In this document: positions 1,443 through 61,012 of the stretch, piece by piece
Numbering within the stretch: the stretch's first letter is position 1
Layout: each line of letters starts with the position of its first letter
From: Trichocoleus sp. FACHB-46
Lineage (GTDB): Bacteria; Cyanobacteriota; Cyanobacteriia; FACHB-46
Length of the DNA: 64,000 bases
NCBI RefSeq assembly: GCF_014695385.1
Contig: NZ_JACJOD010000006.1
Location: 248,001-312,000, forward strand
Direction: 5' to 3'
Made by a program: the position numbers and the translations under genes
Notes under the pieces: model-generated
What the model was told of the DNA's origin: nothing
The model's database searches: none
Seen by the model: only the letters and a program-made list of their open reading frames with translations

Positions 1443-3674
1443 CTAAAAAAGCTTGTTGATGAACGACTTTTGATAGAAATTTTCTAATGCCTTGACACAG
1501 GTAATATCGTCATAAAGGCGGGAATGGGCAGCCTTGATTTTTTGGGAGATTTGATGACGCCACTTGGGATCTAGGCCTAAACGAGCTGCAATTTGAATGT
1601 ATTCTGCCTCGTTAGCAGCGATCGCCTCTGTCATTCCTAATTGTTTGAGCACGGCGTAGGAGTGGCGGCTACGCATCATTTTTCCAGGGCAAGTCACCAC
1701 AGGTAAGTGACAAGCGATCGCCTCTAGAGCAGTATTGCCTCCTGACCAACTAAATGTATCTAGAAACACGTCAGCAATGCCATTTAAGCTTAAGTAGCTA
1801 TTGTGCCCTTGGCGAGGCAAAATCGCGCAGTAGTCAGGGCTTTTGAGGCCATACTGAGCAAAAGCTCGCTCTAAACGCTGAGAGAACTTTTCAGTAATCG
1901 CAGCACTTTTGTGCGAAATAAAAACAAATTGTGCTTGCGGTACTTGTTGAGCGATCGCAGCAAAAATGTAATCATATTGAGGGAGATATTTAAATAGAGT
2001 TTGACAGGATAAATATAGAACTGCATCTTCTCGCAATCCAAAATCAGCGCGAGTTTTTGTGGCTTCACTTAGGTCAGGTGGACTGTAGGCAATACTAATA
2101 TTAGGTAAACGTACTAGTTCTTCTGAATAATGTTTGTCTCCATCTTCAGGTTCCATCAATTCACTCGATAAAAAATAGTCGATGGTGGGAGAGCCTGTAG
2201 TAACTGGATGCCCCCAAGTAACGCATTGAACTGGGGCCAGACGCAGACTAGAAAATAAGCTCATATAAGGATGCATTCCTACATCCAGAAACACTAAAAT
2301 ATCAAGCTCGTCTTTTCTAATTTGTTCACCGACCGCTTGGATGTAATCCAATTCGATCGCTTCTTTAACAGGCAGATGACGAAAAACATCACTAGAAGCT
2401 CGGAAATTTTCCGTATGCTCATCGGAATGGGGATGCAAGTGATAGGAGTAAATCTCAAAATTTTGGCGATCGCTATGCCGCAACCAGCCTAAAAACAGCA
2501 CTCCAACTGTTTGCTTCCACATACAAGCAGAGGCATAACCAACCCGAATTTTTTGCCTAACACTTGGTTTTTTAGTCGCTAAAGGCTGCATCAATTCAGG
2601 ATATTGCGCAGCCATTAGTTGATGAAGTAACTGAGCAAATTGAACTTGCTGCTCCAGATCATTTTGGCCTTGGTAATGCAAATAGAAATTGGTTTGAGAC
2701 CCTAAGCCCTTCAAAAAAACAGCGCGACTTTCTGCACTATTAACATCAGCTCTTGATTGCACATATTGAATCAGCTGAGCTAAACCTTGGTTAAACTGCT
2801 GTCGATAAGTTGAGATCTCTGTGCTTGACTCGTACAGAATTGGCAAAACTAGGTGGCGATCGCGCTCAAACAGCACCATATCTGGAAAGAGCTGAGCGGC
2901 TGTAGCGGCTGCGGCGATCGCGGTTCTCGTTTGGCCGCTGTTCCGTAAAGCTGCAATCAAATTAATGTGGAAATCAGGCTTTTGAGGATACTGCTTTACT
3001 GCGGCTTGGTAAATTTCGGCGGCTCTCTGGGATTGATTGAGATGTTGCAAGCAGTCGCCTAAATAACGATACACTCGCTCGATAGCCTCTGAGGCAATTG
3101 CTGGTGTTAGAGATGCGAGAAACTTCTCGTAAGGAGCGATCGCGGCTGCATAATTGCCTTGACGGTAATAGCTAAATCCTAGATAAAAATCAGACCTCAA
3201 CTCTGATTCATTAGCTTGCAATTCATAGGCTTGCCCTAAATCACTTAAAATTTTGACATCCCGAGGATTGCGATCGTGAGCGATTAAATAGTTGCTAATG
3301 GCAGCATCAAATTGTGATCGAGTAACGAAGATTCGTCCTAAAGCTAAGTAAGCCTCTACCAAGTTGGCATCTAGCTTGATCGTGTTTTCATAAGCTTGAA
3401 TCGCTGATTCGGTTTGCTGAAGTTGCTCAAATACCATACCTAAACGGTAATGATGCAGAGCCGTGAAGCGGCTGATTTCTAACGCTTGTGATAGCGTTGA
3501 AAAAGCCTCTTGATGACGACCCATTCGATAATAAAGATGTCCTAAGTCACTCCAGATTTCTGCTTGCTTAGGCTCTAATTGTAAAGCTTGCTGATATTTC
3601 TGTTCTGCTGCTGTTAAAGAATTTTGCTTTTCTAGAGCTGTTGCTTCTTGATATAAAGTTTGCCAATTTTCCAT
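1443..3674 (-). CDS. TPR protein with SPINDLY/GT41 O-GlcNAc-transferase-like domain (copy A)
   Basis: A 743-residue protein with about seven tetratricopeptide repeats in residues 1-250 (AEIWSDLGHLYYRMGRHQEA is typical), a helical linker, and a GT41-type catalytic region from about residue 375 to the end. Visible family motifs are RVGYASACMWKQTVGVLF, LVFLDVGMHPYMSLFSSLRL, CVTWGHPVTTGSPTIDYF, CQTLFKYLPQYDYIF and DTFSWSGGNTALEAIACHLP. The family moves GlcNAc or other sugars to Ser/Thr of proteins, or in some bacteria to other acceptors; the donor here cannot be read. ATG start at 3674. It lies 64 bases downstream of a close paralogue, giving a tandem duplication, and is followed by the methyltransferase-glycosyltransferase fusion. 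Cytoplasmic: no signal peptide. Confidence 0.88.
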   Translation of the reverse strand: MENWQTLYQEATALEKQNSLTAAEQKYQQALQLEPKQAEIWSDLGHLYYRMGRHQEAFSTLSQALEISRFTALHHYRLGMVFEQLQQTESAIQAYENTIKLDANLVEAYLALGRIFVTRSQFDAAISNYLIAHDRNPRDVKILSDLGQAYELQANESELRSDFYLGFSYYRQGNYAAAIAPYEKFLASLTPAIASEAIERVYRYLGDCLQHLNQSQRAAEIYQAAVKQYPQKPDFHINLIAALRNSGQTRTAIAAAATAAQLFPDMVLFERDRHLVLPILYESSTEISTYRQQFNQGLAQLIQYVQSRADVNSAESRAVFLKGLGSQTNFYLHYQGQNDLEQQVQFAQLLHQLMAAQYPELMQPLATKKPSVRQKIRVGYASACMWKQTVGVLFLGWLRHSDRQNFEIYSYHLHPHSDEHTENFRASSDVFRHLPVKEAIELDYIQAVGEQIRKDELDILVFLDVGMHPYMSLFSSLRLAPVQCVTWGHPVTTGSPTIDYFLSSELMEPEDGDKHYSEELVRLPNISIAYSPPDLSEATKTRADFGLREDAVLYLSCQTLFKYLPQYDYIFAAIAQQVPQAQFVFISHKSAAITEKFSQRLERAFAQYGLKSPDYCAILPRQGHNSYLSLNGIADVFLDTFSWSGGNTALEAIACHLPVVTCPGKMMRSRHSYAVLKQLGMTEAIAANEAEYIQIAARLGLDPKWRHQISQKIKAAHSRLYDDITCVKALENFYQKSFINKLF

Positions 3675-54134: not shown

Positions 54135-54974
54135 ATGACGGCTCCCTCAGAACTAGAGACTGCATCCGAGCAGCGTTTGGACCTTAATTCAGACCCCGCA
54201 GCCTCACAGGATCTGAGCGTTGCACCCAAAACTCCTATTAGTGAAGACGAAACCGAATATTTCGACGAGTTACCCGATGAAGTCGAAATGTCCTTGTTCG
54301 ATCATTTAGAAGAGTTGCGGCAACGGATCTTTTACTCCTTAATTGCAGCAGTTATCGGGATTATTGGTTGCTTCGTCTTCGTTAAACCCATCGTCCAGCT
54401 ACTAGAAGTCCCCGCCCAAGGCGTTAAATTTTTGCAACTGGCCCCAGGTGAATACTTTTTTGTCTCCATCAAAGTCGCGGGTTATAGCGGGCTACTGGTT
54501 GCGAGTCCCTTCATCCTCTACCAAATCATCCAGTTTGTTCTGCCCGGTCTAACGCGGCGTGAACGACGGTTCATTGGGCCAATCGTCTTGGGTTCCAGTG
54601 TCCTATTTGCTGCGGGTTTGGCTTTTGCGTATGTTGCTCTCATCCCTGCTGCTCTCAACTTCTTCATTACCTACGGCGAAGATGTAGTCGAGCAGCTTTG
54701 GTCCATCGATCGCTACTTCGAGTTTGTCCTGCTGCTTCTGTTTAGCACTGGCCTAGCCTTTCAGATTCCCGTAATTCAATTGCTGCTGGGTCTAATCGGC
54801 ATCGTCTCCTCAGCTCAAATGCTCTCCGGTTGGCGATATGTCATTCTAGGCGCTGCCATTCTAGGTGCAGTGCTGACCCCCTCCACCGATCCTTTGACTC
54901 AAAGCCTCTTAGGAGGAGCAGTTGTGGGGCTTTACTTTGGTGGCATCGGTTGCGTAAAACTGCTTGGTCGTTAG
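54135..54974 (+). CDS. tatC: Sec-independent protein translocase TatC
   Basis: A 279-residue protein with an acidic N-terminal arm of about 60 residues and the six TatC membrane helices. Signatures are [20 protein letters not shown], the acidic-loop region [20 protein letters not shown], and [20 protein letters not shown]. The end [20 protein letters not shown] is standard. TatC binds twin-arginine signals. A Tat substrate, the Rieske protein PetC, is encoded 6 kb away (GRRQFM signal). ATG start at 54135. No tatA/tatB is next to it. Confidence 0.95.
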
Positions 54975-55091: not shown

Positions 55092-56048
55092 TTGAATTCA
55101 AAATTATCTCAGCTTCATAAATTAGAGCAGCTAGCTCAGCGACTACACCGACAATTGACATTTCTGTGCCTTTCCCAACGACCCATTACCCTCGGTACAG
55201 TCTTAGCCATTTCCGTACTGAGCGGTTGTGCCATCCTCGACCCCATCCAAGTAGACTCCTCACCCGTACCAACCGATATTGCTCAAACCAGACCAGAGCA
55301 GGTTGCCACAAACTCTAGCAATCTTCTTTGGTCTAGTAGCTTTGACGAAGCTGACTGGCAGCAGCATTGGGGCACCAGCAAGCGCAAAGATTGGGGACTT
55401 GAAAACGTCGAAATTATTCCAGACCCAACCGGAAAGTTTAGCAAAGTGCTGCGCGTGAACTATCCTGCTCGTTCTGCCAGCCCCACCGTCGCCCGCAAAT
55501 ACAAAGCTCCGTTGGGTGGTTGCCAGTTTCTCGCCGACCTCAACTTGCAACCTAGAGACACCTTGCGGCTCAGCTACTACGTCCGCTTCTCAGAAAATTT
55601 CGATTACATTCGGGGAGGCAAACTTCCCGGCTTATTTGGGGGTGACAGCAACAGCGGTGGCGATACTCCCAATGGTACTGATGGCTTTTCCACCCGCTTC
55701 ATGTGGCGCAAAAACGGAGCGGGAGAACTGTACGCCTACCTCCCAACCAGCGACGAATATGGCACCTCCATCGGGCGCGGCCAATGGCGCTTTAAGCCAG
55801 GAGTTTGGTATCGCCTAGAGCAAGAAGTGGTGCTCAATCAACCTGGTCAACAAGATGGGCGAGTCCGGGTGTGGCTCGATGGTCAACAAGTGCTTGACCA
55901 GGAAGGGCTTACCTTCCGCTCCACCGACAAACTCAAAATTGACGGCATCTTCTTCTCCACCTTCTTCGGCGGCAACGATCCCTCCTGGGCTACCCGCAAA
56001 GACGTATACGTAGACTTCGCCGACTTTGCAGTCGCAGCCGTCAACTAA
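55092..56048 (+). CDS. Polysaccharide-lyase-14-like lipoprotein
   Basis: A 318-residue protein. A signal with lipobox (LAISVLSGC) marks a lipoprotein with lipid-linked Cys around residue 47. The rest is a jelly-roll: WSSSFDEADWQQHWGTSKRK, then VLRVNYPARSASPTVARKYK, YVRFSENFDYIRGGKLPGLF and DGIFFSTFFGGNDPSWATRK. This is the pattern of PL14-type lyases, many of which act on alginate or glucuronan. Start as TTG at 55092 is doubtful; other codons are possible. It is convergent with the Alg8-like gene, 145 bases apart, with a repeat between. Confidence 0.7.
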   Translation: MNSKLSQLHKLEQLAQRLHRQLTFLCLSQRPITLGTVLAISVLSGCAILDPIQVDSSPVPTDIAQTRPEQVATNSSNLLWSSSFDEADWQQHWGTSKRKDWGLENVEIIPDPTGKFSKVLRVNYPARSASPTVARKYKAPLGGCQFLADLNLQPRDTLRLSYYVRFSENFDYIRGGKLPGLFGGDSNSGGDTPNGTDGFSTRFMWRKNGAGELYAYLPTSDEYGTSIGRGQWRFKPGVWYRLEQEVVLNQPGQQDGRVRVWLDGQQVLDQEGLTFRSTDKLKIDGIFFSTFFGGNDPSWATRKDVYVDFADFAVAAVN

Positions 56049-56103
56049 CCTTCGCTCTTGAAGCAGTGGGCGAAGCGATCGCTAACCTACTGGACTAAAC
56101 CTA

Positions 56104-56170
56104 CTTTTGGAGGAAGTCTGAGGGACGCAACCGTCCCTCAGCGGGGGTTTGGGGGCAAGCGCCCTCAAGG
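56104..56170 (+). repeat. Dispersed double-hairpin repeat, copy 3
   Basis: The first stem is exact. In the second stem GCCCTCAA replaces GCCCCCAA, so one G-C is now G-U. It lies 55 bases after the stop of the PL14-like gene and just before the 3' end of the Alg8-like gene. Confidence 0.9.
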
Positions 56171-56192
56171 ACTTGGTTTTAGCAAATGAAAT

Positions 56193-58403
56193 CTAAGCCC
56201 CCTGAGATAACGAAGTCGGCAAAGTCACCCCTTTCGTTTGGGTATTGACCGCATCCTCCATCACAATCTCACCCCGATTCAAACTGCCATCTACCGCCAC
56301 ATATTCCACCGTTACATCTTGCGTTGAGTTCAGCACTAGGGGATTGCGACCACTCCGCTCCAGATGCAGATTCTTCACAGTGGCTTGCTCAACTTGGCGT
56401 AAGTAAATACTATCGATCGCATATTCGGCAACAACCGCAGACTTGGGCAAAATCTGCCGCATCGTAAAGCCACTTAACTCCACATTTCTTAGCTTGTCTA
56501 CAACGGCCTTAGCGGTGTGAGAGACGGGCTGAGCTGTAGATTTCGTGACGCGATCGCCCTCTCCCTTAGGTTGAATAGAAAGCACCGCTTCTCCAGCTTC
56601 GCGAGCGAAATGAGCCTGCAAAATCGTCCGTGACATGCCTTGTCCCTTGAGCTTGATGTCGCTGCGATTAATTTCTACAGGTTGAAATAAATCAATTTCA
56701 CCAATGGGCAAATTAATCTGTACCTGACTGGATTGCGGCAAGCGAGCAATTAATGCCTGTAAAGCAGCAGAATCATCTCGATTATCGTTAGGAATCACCC
56801 CGCGATCGATCGCCTCGACAATTTCCAACGGCATTTGCTGCGCTACCACTTGGCGGTTGAGCCACCAGCCCTCCAAATCCCAAATGGGGCTAAGGGAGCC
56901 AGATAGCCATAAGAGGAAAATCACGAAACTAAAGGCTTGAGCCCCCAACAAAAATCGAGAAGTGCCCAGCTTGGCGGCTCTTTCCAAACCAGAGCCTTCT
57001 GCCGAAATGCTCTGATTGCCCCGGTTAGACCAATTCTGCTTGGCCAAATTCATCAGTGTCCACACCTTGACTAAAGCCGATGCCCACTGCGACAGCAGCA
57101 AAATGGGGAAGTGAATTGGGCGCAGCTCAGAACTCCGACCCCAGAAAATCAGCAGCAACATCAGTGGACGGCTAAAGCAAATCCAGGACGAAATGATCCC
57201 AACCGCAACCCAATTGCCTTGCAGAAACGAAATGACTAGTAGACCAGGCGTAATCAGAGAAGTCCAAATACTAATGCGTTGGTCGAGCAAGCTGTACCAA
57301 GCAGTCCAACCGATGCGATGAGGGCCAAGCGCGATCGCGCGGTTGTTGTTCCGCAGCATGTTGCCGTACCAGCGCCGCATGTTCTGGTAAGCGCGATCGA
57401 CAAAGGAACCCGAAATTGTCTCAATCGAGTAGACAACTACATCGGGGATGTAGAGCATTTCATAGCCACGTTGCAGCAGCCAAAACCAAGTACTCTTATC
57501 ATCTCCAGACAGAAACTTGAATTGTCCCCAGAGCCAATCATCCAGTGTGTCGTTTTCCAGCTGCATGGCAAAGGTAGGATGTAACGCTGCCTCTGCCCGA
57601 AACAGAGAGAAGCGGCCTGTCAAGCACATCACCTTGCGCGAGAGCGAGTCCGAGCACATTTGGCTGTGGCGTTGGGCAAACCGCAGGTGAAACCATTCAG
57701 AAAACAGATAAGAACCTTGAACCACTGGTAACTCGTCAGTGGTTAAAGCTCCCATTTTGGGGAACATGAGGAAAAAGGGTAGACACTGGCGCAGCGTGCC
57801 GGGAGCTAGTTCTGAGTCACCATCCATCAACGCCACAATCGTATCCGCAGGCAAATTCAGTTGTGCGAGTTCTCTCAGACCATCGGCCATCGCTTTGCGC
57901 TTACCGTCTTTCTGCGTCATTAAAACCAGACGAACGGTTTTGAGTTCTGGATCTTCGGCTTTGAGGATCTCTACAATCGAGGCATTTTCTTCGTCACTGC
58001 TGCTACTGACTAGAACAGTAATCGGGTGCACTAAATCTCTAGCTTCTCGCGCGATCGCCCGAAAGACTCGCTCGGTAATCCAGGGTTTCTCTTTATAAGT
58101 TGGGACGAGCAAACAAACGTGAGGCAGATGCTCAACCGGAACTTTATTGGCCCAGCGCCGCCACTTAGGAAAGACCCAGTGCAGGTAAATCCGCGATCGC
58201 AACAGGCGTAAGAGAAACCAAGCCCAGCGCCATACACCCACTACGCCCAAGCTAATCAGGCCAAACACATCCCAAATGGCTAGGTTGCCAGGGTTTTGTA
58301 AGACGTAGAGACCTGTCAAGCCCAAGACTGGAAAAAACAGGAATGCCAACAAGTTAAGTTGGGCGCTCAGGGGTTTAGAAGAGGCTGATGCAGTAGATTT
58401 CAT
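56193..58403 (-). CDS. Alg8-like family 2 synthase with C-terminal beta-helix domain
   Basis: A 736-residue membrane synthase. Two membrane helices (18-70) precede the GT2 domain: LLVPTYKEKPWITERVF, the DxD in MDGDSEL (Asp194, Asp196), GDDKSTWFWLL (301-), and the RWYGNMLRNNNRAIALG region (Arg344, Trp345) with LLDQRISIWTSL. These segments strongly resemble Alg8, the mannuronan synthase of alginate makers. More membrane helices follow to about residue 525. Residues 540-736 form a non-membrane domain with GVIPNDNRDDSAALQALIAR and short parallel repeats, the look of a pectate-lyase-type beta-helix; Alg8 ends without it. ATG start at 58403. The HlyD-type gene lies 135 bases upstream on the same strand. 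Confidence 0.78.
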   Translation of the reverse strand: MKSTASASSKPLSAQLNLLAFLFFPVLGLTGLYVLQNPGNLAIWDVFGLISLGVVGVWRWAWFLLRLLRSRIYLHWVFPKWRRWANKVPVEHLPHVCLLVPTYKEKPWITERVFRAIAREARDLVHPITVLVSSSSDEENASIVEILKAEDPELKTVRLVLMTQKDGKRKAMADGLRELAQLNLPADTIVALMDGDSELAPGTLRQCLPFFLMFPKMGALTTDELPVVQGSYLFSEWFHLRFAQRHSQMCSDSLSRKVMCLTGRFSLFRAEAALHPTFAMQLENDTLDDWLWGQFKFLSGDDKSTWFWLLQRGYEMLYIPDVVVYSIETISGSFVDRAYQNMRRWYGNMLRNNNRAIALGPHRIGWTAWYSLLDQRISIWTSLITPGLLVISFLQGNWVAVGIISSWICFSRPLMLLLIFWGRSSELRPIHFPILLLSQWASALVKVWTLMNLAKQNWSNRGNQSISAEGSGLERAAKLGTSRFLLGAQAFSFVIFLLWLSGSLSPIWDLEGWWLNRQVVAQQMPLEIVEAIDRGVIPNDNRDDSAALQALIARLPQSSQVQINLPIGEIDLFQPVEINRSDIKLKGQGMSRTILQAHFAREAGEAVLSIQPKGEGDRVTKSTAQPVSHTAKAVVDKLRNVELSGFTMRQILPKSAVVAEYAIDSIYLRQVEQATVKNLHLERSGRNPLVLNSTQDVTVEYVAVDGSLNRGEIVMEDAVNTQTKGVTLPTSLSQGA

Positions 58404-58538
58404 AATGACTCAAATAATTCCTGAGTAAGCAGCACAAAGCATGAGAGAGACTGGCTCGTTGCACCCTGATGCCTGGACGGAAGGAATTGAAAGTTGCGAC
58501 AGCAGGCGATCGCCATTGCAACCCGAAGCAACCCAAAA

Positions 58539-59843
58539 CTATTTACCTGCCAACAGTTTGGTGCCAAAGGTCATGCGAGCTGATTGGCCGACGCCACAAA
58601 ACTGGTTGGTCTGAGACTGCTGAGGCGCAGGAGGAATGCGTACAGTCACCTTGGCTAAGGGTTGGCCAACTAAATTAGAGGCGACCGCAGGCACTAAAGC
58701 CTGGGCCTGGTCTTTTGCCAATTCAGCGCGGTTCACTGCCTCAATCAGCTCCACTTCGCCGACGAAGGTGTCTTCAGCTCCAGCAAGTTGCACTCGCACT
58801 GGCTTAGTACTATCAATTTGGTTTGCTTGTTGGGTAGAGACCAAAGTTTCTACCCAGAGGTCATTACAGTCCAACAAGGTAATCAGGGTGTCGGGGCGGT
58901 TCACTTGCTCGCCTTGGTCGTGCTCGGTACTGTAGACCACGCCTGTAAAGGGAGCTGAAATTTCAATGTCTTGGCGATCGCTAAACTCTGCCTGGGCTTT
59001 TTTCAATTGTTTTTGGCTGCTGTCTAGCTCAGCTTCGAGGGTCTCAATTTGAGCCGCTTGGCCTTGAACGCTCCGCATCAAGTTCATGCGTTGGTCGGCC
59101 AAGGTTGCACCAGGAGTCAGCGCCACACCGTCTTGTAAAGCACCTAAGGAAGCTTGAGCTGAAGACAACTCGGCTTGGGCTTGCTTGACTTCTGCTTCAG
59201 CTGATTTCCAGATGAACTCTAGTTGGTCCACCTTCTGACGAGAAATCGCACCTTCCTGCAATAACTGCTGGTAGCGCTGGTAATCCAGTCGAGCCGCTTT
59301 TTCCTTAGCCATTGCTGCCTCAACGGCTGCTTGCTGGTGCGTAACCTCCTTCGCAGAGAGACCTGTATTGACTCTTTGTAAGGTCTTATCTTGAATTTCT
59401 AAGCTGCTTAGCTGTTGCTGCAGAAAGACTAGGGATTGTTTGGCTGCGACCAACTGTGCCGTCTTGGTTTGCACTTCACCCTGCAACTGCAACAAGTTTT
59501 GCTCTACCTGGGCTGTGCTTTCCAGCCGAGCCAGAATCTGGCCTGATTTAACTGGGGCACCGGGACGGGCGTAAAAAGCTTTCAGTTTGCCATCAATGGG
59601 AGCGCGTAACCGCACAGTTCGACCACTGATTAGCCCACCATCTACAGTGGCATGGGTCAGTCGATAGGTAACGGAGGACAGGCCAAAGGCGATCGCCGCC
59701 CCTCCTAACCCCAGACAAGTCATCCCGACAAGTAATCTTTGCCAAATCTGCTTTTTCTTAAAATCGGGCAACCGATAGTCAGCTTCAGGGGGAACTGCAA
59801 CAAACTCTTGGAAGCCGAGGGGCTTAGTTGGGGTCTTTACCAT
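58539..59843 (-). CDS. HlyD-family periplasmic adaptor (Alg44-like place)
   Basis: A 434-residue protein with one membrane helix near residue 35-58 (LLVGMTCLGLGGAAIAFGLS), a biotinyl-lipoyl-like strand unit (RLRAPIDGKLKAFYARPGAP), a long alpha-helical hairpin, a second lipoyl half (IEISAPFTGVVYSTEHDQGE) and a beta-barrel end. This is the membrane-fusion layout of HlyD/EmrA, also used by Alg44 in alginate export. The PilZ domain of Alg44 is missing. ATG at 59843; the frame extends further to 59885. It is upstream of the Alg8-like gene, so the two likely form an operon for export of a polymer. Confidence 0.83.
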   Translation of the reverse strand: MVKTPTKPLGFQEFVAVPPEADYRLPDFKKKQIWQRLLVGMTCLGLGGAAIAFGLSSVTYRLTHATVDGGLISGRTVRLRAPIDGKLKAFYARPGAPVKSGQILARLESTAQVEQNLLQLQGEVQTKTAQLVAAKQSLVFLQQQLSSLEIQDKTLQRVNTGLSAKEVTHQQAAVEAAMAKEKAARLDYQRYQQLLQEGAISRQKVDQLEFIWKSAEAEVKQAQAELSSAQASLGALQDGVALTPGATLADQRMNLMRSVQGQAAQIETLEAELDSSQKQLKKAQAEFSDRQDIEISAPFTGVVYSTEHDQGEQVNRPDTLITLLDCNDLWVETLVSTQQANQIDSTKPVRVQLAGAEDTFVGEVELIEAVNRAELAKDQAQALVPAVASNLVGQPLAKVTVRIPPAPQQSQTNQFCGVGQSARMTFGTKLLAGK

Positions 59844-60694: not shown

Positions 60695-61012
60695 TTAAAA
60701 CTCTTCTAGCAACCACTCGGAAGCGCGATCGCCCAGATCCAGCGGGATGCTCACAGCCTTACCCAAGCGAGGCCGTTCCTTAGTCTGCTCAACAAACTGC
60801 TGCACTTGGCTGAAGCCACCCCAAGCCTCTAAGTAGCTGCTGATGGTTTCTAGATGGGCGAAATATTCGGCTTCCGTGAGGGGAAAAGAAGCCTGCTCCA
60901 AATACTTCCACATGACCTGAACAAAGATTTTGCCCTGGGTCCGTCGCACTTGAACATCGTAGGAACGGCCCCATTTGCGGAGAATGAGTTGATGTAAGTC
61001 TCGTCCTGTCAT
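60695..61012 (-). CDS. DUF3067 family protein
   Basis: A 105-residue soluble protein. TGRDLHQLILRKWGRSYDVQ, VQVMWKYLEQASFPLTEAEY, and the tail SIPLDLGDRASEWLLEEF match DUF3067, a family of cyanobacteria and plastids. Function is not established. It is divergent from petC, a gene order I recall from other cyanobacteria. ATG start at 61012. Confidence 0.85.
   Translation of the reverse strand: MTGRDLHQLILRKWGRSYDVQVRRTQGKIFVQVMWKYLEQASFPLTEAEYFAHLETISSYLEAWGGFSQVQQFVEQTKERPRLGKAVSIPLDLGDRASEWLLEEF

Follow-up and report, generated by a model that had tools for sequence, protein, structure and literature searches.

Extracellular polymers of cyanobacteria are abundant and often acidic, and the genes for their synthesis and export are mostly unknown. 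The best described system of a related kind is the alginate system of Pseudomonas and Azotobacter (AlgD-Alg8-Alg44-K-E-G-X-L-I-J-F-A). A phylum-wide survey of cyanobacteria by Pereira et al. 2015 recorded GT2 synthases, placed Alg8 and BcsA in a single group, and listed PilZ-HlyD Alg44, AlgK and AlgE as absent (PMC4594306). The consulted part of that survey describes no separate Alg8 clade, no HlyD or EAL-HlyD partner, no PL14 enzyme, and no dehydrogenase/epimerase clusters. An alginate-like polymer from Synechocystis was reported chemically, and the consulted part of that paper gives no biosynthesis genes (PMC10629183). The beta-1,4-glucuronan of Sinorhizobium and Peteryoungia is a further bacterial uronan, whose biosynthetic genes are stated to be unknown (PMC10180729). 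The open-access literature, with subscription papers outside the scope of the search, contained no paper on cyanobacterial Alg8 loci with PL14 or EAL-HlyD.

The window analysed here is a 64,000-nucleotide stretch of the genome of Trichocoleus sp. FACHB-46. A PL14 lipoprotein gene, an Alg8-type GT2 synthase gene and an HlyD adaptor gene are clustered in it, and all three reading frames are open (Table 1). The Pseudomonas/Azotobacter system likewise combines an Alg8-clade synthase with an adjoining HlyD-fold adaptor and a uronate lyase in the cluster. However, the window adaptor lacks PilZ, the synthase bears a beta-helix tail, and no AlgE porin was found; the lyase belongs to PL14, whereas the AlgL known from Pseudomonas is a PL5 enzyme, and the genome lacks the GDP-mannose dehydrogenase and the epimerase. 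Another similar system is found in an alphaproteobacterial Methyloligella MAG, which carries an Alg8-clade synthase (41% identical) and PL14 on one contig. Unlike the window locus, it has a PilZ-HlyD adaptor and a synthase without the beta-helix tail, together with an adjacent GDP-mannose-type dehydrogenase, an RTX protein and type I secretion genes. Together with the PL14 gene, they make up one cluster in this MAG (L003, 2716-13162).

Table 1. Features of the window locus and of related cyanobacterial loci (L numbers denote loci in other genomes).
Feature	Position	Strand	Evidence
PL14 polysaccharide lyase, putative lipoprotein (lipobox LSGC)	55092..56048	+	PF21294 E 2.8e-64; 5gmt E 2.3e-32
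Processive GT2 synthase of the Alg8 clade (736 aa, membrane helices)	56193..58403	-	PF13641 E 3.6e-34
C-terminal right-handed beta-helix domain of the synthase, presumably periplasmic	56196..56840	-	PF12708 E 0.0014 (under curated cut-off)
HlyD-type periplasmic adaptor in place of Alg44	58539..59843 (ORF to 59885)	-	HlyD_3 E 1.9e-14; HlyD_D23 E 2.5e-14
Block absent from same-genus genome G612 (L176), with ~18 bp there instead	55176..59747	.	blastn of L176 against the window; stub translation
EAL-HlyD fusion adaptors	L001 4363-6501; L002 5669-7690; L017 7280-9400; L165 13230-15503		EAL domain match
Near-complete alginate gene cluster	L018 3816-14830 (also L158, L164, L165, L171)		dehydrogenase + AlgE-type C5-epimerase

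Gene identities at the window locus

The PL14 gene is convergent with the synthase gene, and the HlyD gene lies upstream of the synthase on the same strand. The locus is flanked by tatC (54135-54974, +) on one side; on the other, a small ORF (60695-61012, -) separates it from petC and petA (61307 onward). A first-pass annotation of the window had placed these three genes here, and Pfam matches for PL14, GT2 and HlyD in open frames bear this out. It had also noted that the PilZ domain, acetylation genes and an AlgE-type porin are absent, in agreement with the lack of any PilZ, AlgE or AlgF homologue beside the locus. An Rfam search over the region gave no match, and promoter and terminator scans of the region gave no matches above chance.

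A phylogenetic tree of the synthase was reconstructed from 26 rows, including seven cyanobacterial proteins and ten proteobacterial Alg8. The Alg8 references were synthases from operons that are identifiable as alginate operons through their other genes. Those on roseobacter plasmids have an annotated nucleotide sugar dehydrogenase, a nucleotidyltransferase and a beta-helix protein; two of them also carry MBOAT, and one carries AlgF. The Pseudomonas-type operons were located via AlgF. The cyanobacterial synthases and the proteobacterial Alg8 formed one clade (support 100/100), with NodC, PgaC, BcsA and other cyanobacterial GT2s outside. The window synthase shares 36% identity over 452 residues with Alg8 of a Pseudomonas-type operon (E 2e-93). 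The motifs GKR, DGD, TGR, GDDK and RWxGN...R are common to cyanobacterial and proteobacterial members, and the two motifs named in the first-pass annotation are both present (MDGDSEL at residue 193, RWYGNMLRNN at residue 344). By this phylogeny, which had been proposed as the refuting test, the window synthase is a member of the Alg8 family. A BcsA, PgaC/IcaA or NodC identity was rejected, as these matches were weak or under cut-off. The AF2 model of the whole synthase is poor (pLDDT 53.6), so its best Foldseek matches, hyaluronan and cellulose synthases, indicate the GT2 superfamily only.

Residues ~525-728 of the synthase are modelled as a small right-handed beta-helix (AF2 pLDDT 79), a domain absent from the first-pass description. 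Foldseek matched it to the A-module of the AlgE4 epimerase (2pyg, E 1.9e-5) and to an alginate epimerase/lyase (8jaz, TMq 0.68). Proteobacterial Alg8 stop short of this tail, with 490-550 residues compared with 640-750 in cyanobacteria. A working epimerase was ruled out by the length of only ~200 residues and by the missing DPH catalytic motif of epimerases; since this motif is missing, the modelled tail is more likely chain-binding than enzymatic.

The adaptor stands where Alg44 would be, adjoining the synthase. HlyD_3 and HlyD_D23 both exceed their cut-offs, which places it among HlyD/EmrA membrane fusion proteins, a family marked by biotinyl-lipoyl-like halves and a barrel-sandwich domain, and Pfam detected neither a PilZ nor an EAL domain. 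The ATG at 59843 is the likely start because the stub left in a congener retains MVKTPTKPLGFQEF; the end coordinate given in the first-pass annotation fits this start. Adaptors at four other loci have an EAL domain at their N-terminus (E 1e-34 to 2e-48), at the position that PilZ occupies in Alg44 and in the Methyloligella adaptor. The glutamate of the EGVET motif binds metal in active EAL enzymes. Compared with E. coli PdeH and PdeK, it is replaced by lysine in all four fusion adaptors. It is therefore plausible that EAL-HlyD is a c-di-GMP receptor without phosphodiesterase activity, analogous to the PilZ-HlyD Alg44. Next to one EAL-HlyD operon (L001) lie genes for UGD and UXS; limited to a single MAG contig, this arrangement was not counted as proof. 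The UDP-xylose synthase ORF there (1611-3611) has 666 aa, about twice the 331 aa of the window genome's enzyme, with a large intein-like internal insert.

The closest solved structure to the PL14 protein is 5gmt, an alginate lyase, and the protein is closer to this mannuronate-type lyase than to the viral vAL-1. The comparison covered 25 cyanobacterial PL14 rows, in which one locus occurs twice, and the row of the Methyloligella MAG. The positions matching Lys, Ser, Arg, Tyr and Tyr of AkAly30 (GGK / FSxR / ELYAY motifs), which we take to be its catalytic residues, are invariant in all rows, and correspond to residues 177, 200, 202, 214 and 216 of the window protein. Together with the lipobox, these matches uphold the earlier description of a PL14-like lipoprotein with a jelly-roll. 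Translation may begin at the TTG at 55092, or further downstream at another in-frame TTG near 55155. Cyanobacterial PL14 genes without an Alg8-type synthase were also seen (L057 9208-10104; L058 6431-9448), the latter as part of a 1005 aa protein.

Conservation as a three-gene unit

Among 292 genomes of the phylum, the synthase was present in five and PL14 in seven, and both lay in one cluster in all five synthase genomes (Fisher p 1.2e-9, kinship of the genomes ignored). In a second draw, from the class, the synthase was found in about 30 of 388 sampled Cyanobacteriia. HlyD is within the synthase cluster at every one of the 31 cyanobacterial loci where the contig allows. PL14 is present in 24 of the 27 loci with enough flank, on either strand, and the other genes flanking the set vary between genomes. 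The three genes thus lie side by side in other cyanobacteria; a lack of co-occurrence in related genomes, the other refuting outcome named in the first-pass annotation, was not seen.

In the congener G612 the site is empty. A scar between tatC and petC/petA (L176 3108-3480) keeps an HlyD stub with the first codons (MVKTPTKPLGFQEFVAVPPDADYRLPDF) and the 5' end of PL14. As ~18 bases replace the block and the first HlyD codons remain, the scar points to a deletion of exactly the three-gene set. Judged by this conservation, HlyD, the synthase and PL14 are a functional unit. A chance neighbourhood of the three genes, with HlyD belonging to an efflux system, is highly improbable. The adaptor does score against efflux adaptors in NCBIfam, all under cut-off; however, the neighbourhood is kept across ~30 genomes despite the varied flanks, HlyD is fused to EAL in four genomes and lies next to the dehydrogenase in the class A loci described below, and the joint loss in G612 contradicts chance.

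The same evidence bears on a further alternative, in which the product of the synthase is neutral or mixed (built, for example, from GDP-mannose or UDP-glucose) and PL14 is directed at foreign uronates in defence or feeding. The donor is not set by the GT2 fold alone, and two of the sampled genomes (G011 and G070) have PL14 but not this synthase. However, PL14 adjoins the synthase at nearly every locus irrespective of strand, the two were lost together, and the clade is that of Alg8, not of BcsA or PgaC. We consider this alternative improbable, and a uronic acid polymer is the reading followed below.

Two classes of cyanobacterial loci

Two classes can be told apart among the cyanobacterial loci. 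Five genomes (L018, L158, L164, L165 and L171) make up class A, each with a GDP-mannose 6-dehydrogenase and an AlgE-type C5-epimerase. Class B comprises the window and about 25 others, whose loci have HlyD, the synthase and PL14 only. PL14 is present in four of the five class A loci, an MPI cupin in three, and PL7 in L018 only. In L018, which has the MPI-type cupin and the PL7 alginate lyase, the dehydrogenase matched the P. aeruginosa GDP-mannose 6-dehydrogenase 1mfz (E 9e-118) ahead of a UDP-glucose enzyme (2e-68), and the beta-helix neighbour matched AlgE4 2pyg (E 2.7e-32) with the motif YGFDPHE. This motif is also found in the epimerases of the remaining class A loci, and the epimerase-like proteins of L164 and L165 bear RTX repeats, like Azotobacter AlgE. 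The L171 contig is short, and its dehydrogenase lies at the end of a different contig. Class A thus adds a GDP-mannose dehydrogenase, MPI and an AlgE-type epimerase to the likeness with Pseudomonas and Azotobacter, and by gene content these loci are near-complete alginate gene sets in cyanobacteria. No prior report of such clusters was found in the open-access literature searched. They are arguably more striking than the window locus.

The genome contents follow this division. In the dehydrogenase tree, the GDP-mannose clade contains 1mfz, proteobacterial AlgD, the five class A enzymes, that of the Methyloligella MAG, and one distant enzyme from the L001 MAG. The only enzyme of the window genome is in the UDP-glucose clade, paired with a UDP-xylose synthase (UXS). 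By homology search and tree, no GDP-mannose 6-dehydrogenase (AlgD) was found in the window genome, the assembly of which is 99.98% complete. Homology searches of the class B assemblies gave none either, with the distant enzyme of the L001 MAG (9.5 Mb) as the sole exception, and the reasonably complete class B genomes carry a UDP-glucose dehydrogenase. The association of GDP-mannose dehydrogenase with class A has a Fisher p of 4e-5, kinship ignored. Candidate GDP-mannose enzymes in G293 and G815 were rejected, as the tree groups the match with UDP-glucose dehydrogenases. A divergent GDP-mannose-type dehydrogenase was observed in the large Coleofasciculus MAG (L059 291-1598); its contig is short and carries no Alg8 locus.

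No C5-epimerase was seen in the class B loci. In the window genome, a search for mannuronan C5-epimerase matched only the PPC region (query 37-152), and not the epimerase domain. The AlgE porin (PF13372) was absent from the window genome and from the class A genomes tested, while the positive control G352 matched. AlgF and PL7 gave no match in the window genome, in searches where no control genome matched either. The first-pass annotation had left two options, a system with its genes dispersed over the genome or a simpler one. The evidence leans towards the simpler system, as the window locus belongs to one of two classes and only the other class carries alginate-specific genes.

Donor, product and significance

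The genetic contrast between the classes bears on the donor. In the synthase tree, class A groups with proteobacterial Alg8 and class B falls across the split, an arrangement that requires the minimum of changes; support for this split is no more than 84% SH-aLRT, and the position of the root is uncertain. As the GDP-mannose dehydrogenase and the epimerase track class A and the synthase tree splits likewise, UDP-glucuronic acid is the likelier donor in class B. The balance tips modestly towards the set being a compact synthase-dependent secretion cassette for a uronic acid polysaccharide, which in class B would use UDP-glucuronic acid and yield a glucuronan-like product; the beta-1,4-glucuronan is a candidate product type. 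The conserved catalytic positions of PL14 also count towards a uronate. Because GDP-mannose 6-dehydrogenase is missing from its genome, the window organism probably makes an acidic polymer related to alginate, such as glucuronan. The earlier proposal that the set makes and trims a uronic-acid-type polymer is thus supported in its general form by the Alg8 clade, PL14 and the conserved set; alginate proper is not, as no GDP-mannose 6-dehydrogenase, C5-epimerase or AlgE porin was found.

GDP-mannuronic acid as the class B donor is nevertheless a serious rival. The cassette might make true alginate (poly-mannuronate) here too, with an unrecognised dehydrogenase supplying GDP-mannuronate and the missing epimerase meaning no guluronate. 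In class A operons, closely related synthases (53-63% identical) lie beside GDP-mannose dehydrogenase, MPI and mannuronan epimerase. The active-site motifs of the two classes differ little, so that one shared donor would fit; no residue separates the classes cleanly, and a comparison for donor-specific residues gave no clean set. The resemblance of PL14 to 5gmt and the modest support for the split also weigh against UDP-glucuronic acid; for the secretion cassette as such, the lack of a recognised outer-membrane exporter is a point against. Conversely, a GDP-mannose-clade dehydrogenase is lacking in the nearly complete window genome, as in almost every class B genome; an epimerase is likewise missing from the window genome, and PL7 was without a match there in its uncontrolled search. 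True alginate in class B therefore appears unlikely, and the glucuronan-like product is preferred.

For the membrane topology, the route and direction of export, and the function of the lyase, we propose the following picture. At the inner membrane, the GT2 domain would link uronic acid units from a nucleotide-sugar donor, which in class B is more likely UDP-glucuronic acid than GDP-mannuronic acid, so that a glucuronan-like polymer would result. The growing chain may pass through the membrane channel of the synthase itself. In the periplasm, the beta-helix tail and the HlyD adaptor might take up the chain and guide it toward the outer membrane, as is thought for the periplasmic part of Alg44. 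The PL14 lipoprotein would cleave mislocalised or over-long chains by beta-elimination, as AlgL does in Pseudomonas.

These loci give concrete candidates for the genes of cyanobacterial polymers: class A for alginate with guluronate, and class B for a related uronan. If the proposed receptor role is true, the EAL-HlyD fusion would represent a second way of placing an Alg8-type synthase under c-di-GMP control. We suggest tentatively, as a bolder possibility short of an even chance, that class B is the first genetic locus of synthase-dependent glucuronan production in bacteria, with an Alg8-clade synthase using UDP-glucuronic acid and c-di-GMP sensed in some members by a degenerate EAL domain on HlyD instead of PilZ. 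As bacterial glucuronan is described as lacking known biosynthesis genes (PMC10180729), class B makes the question of its biosynthesis directly testable.
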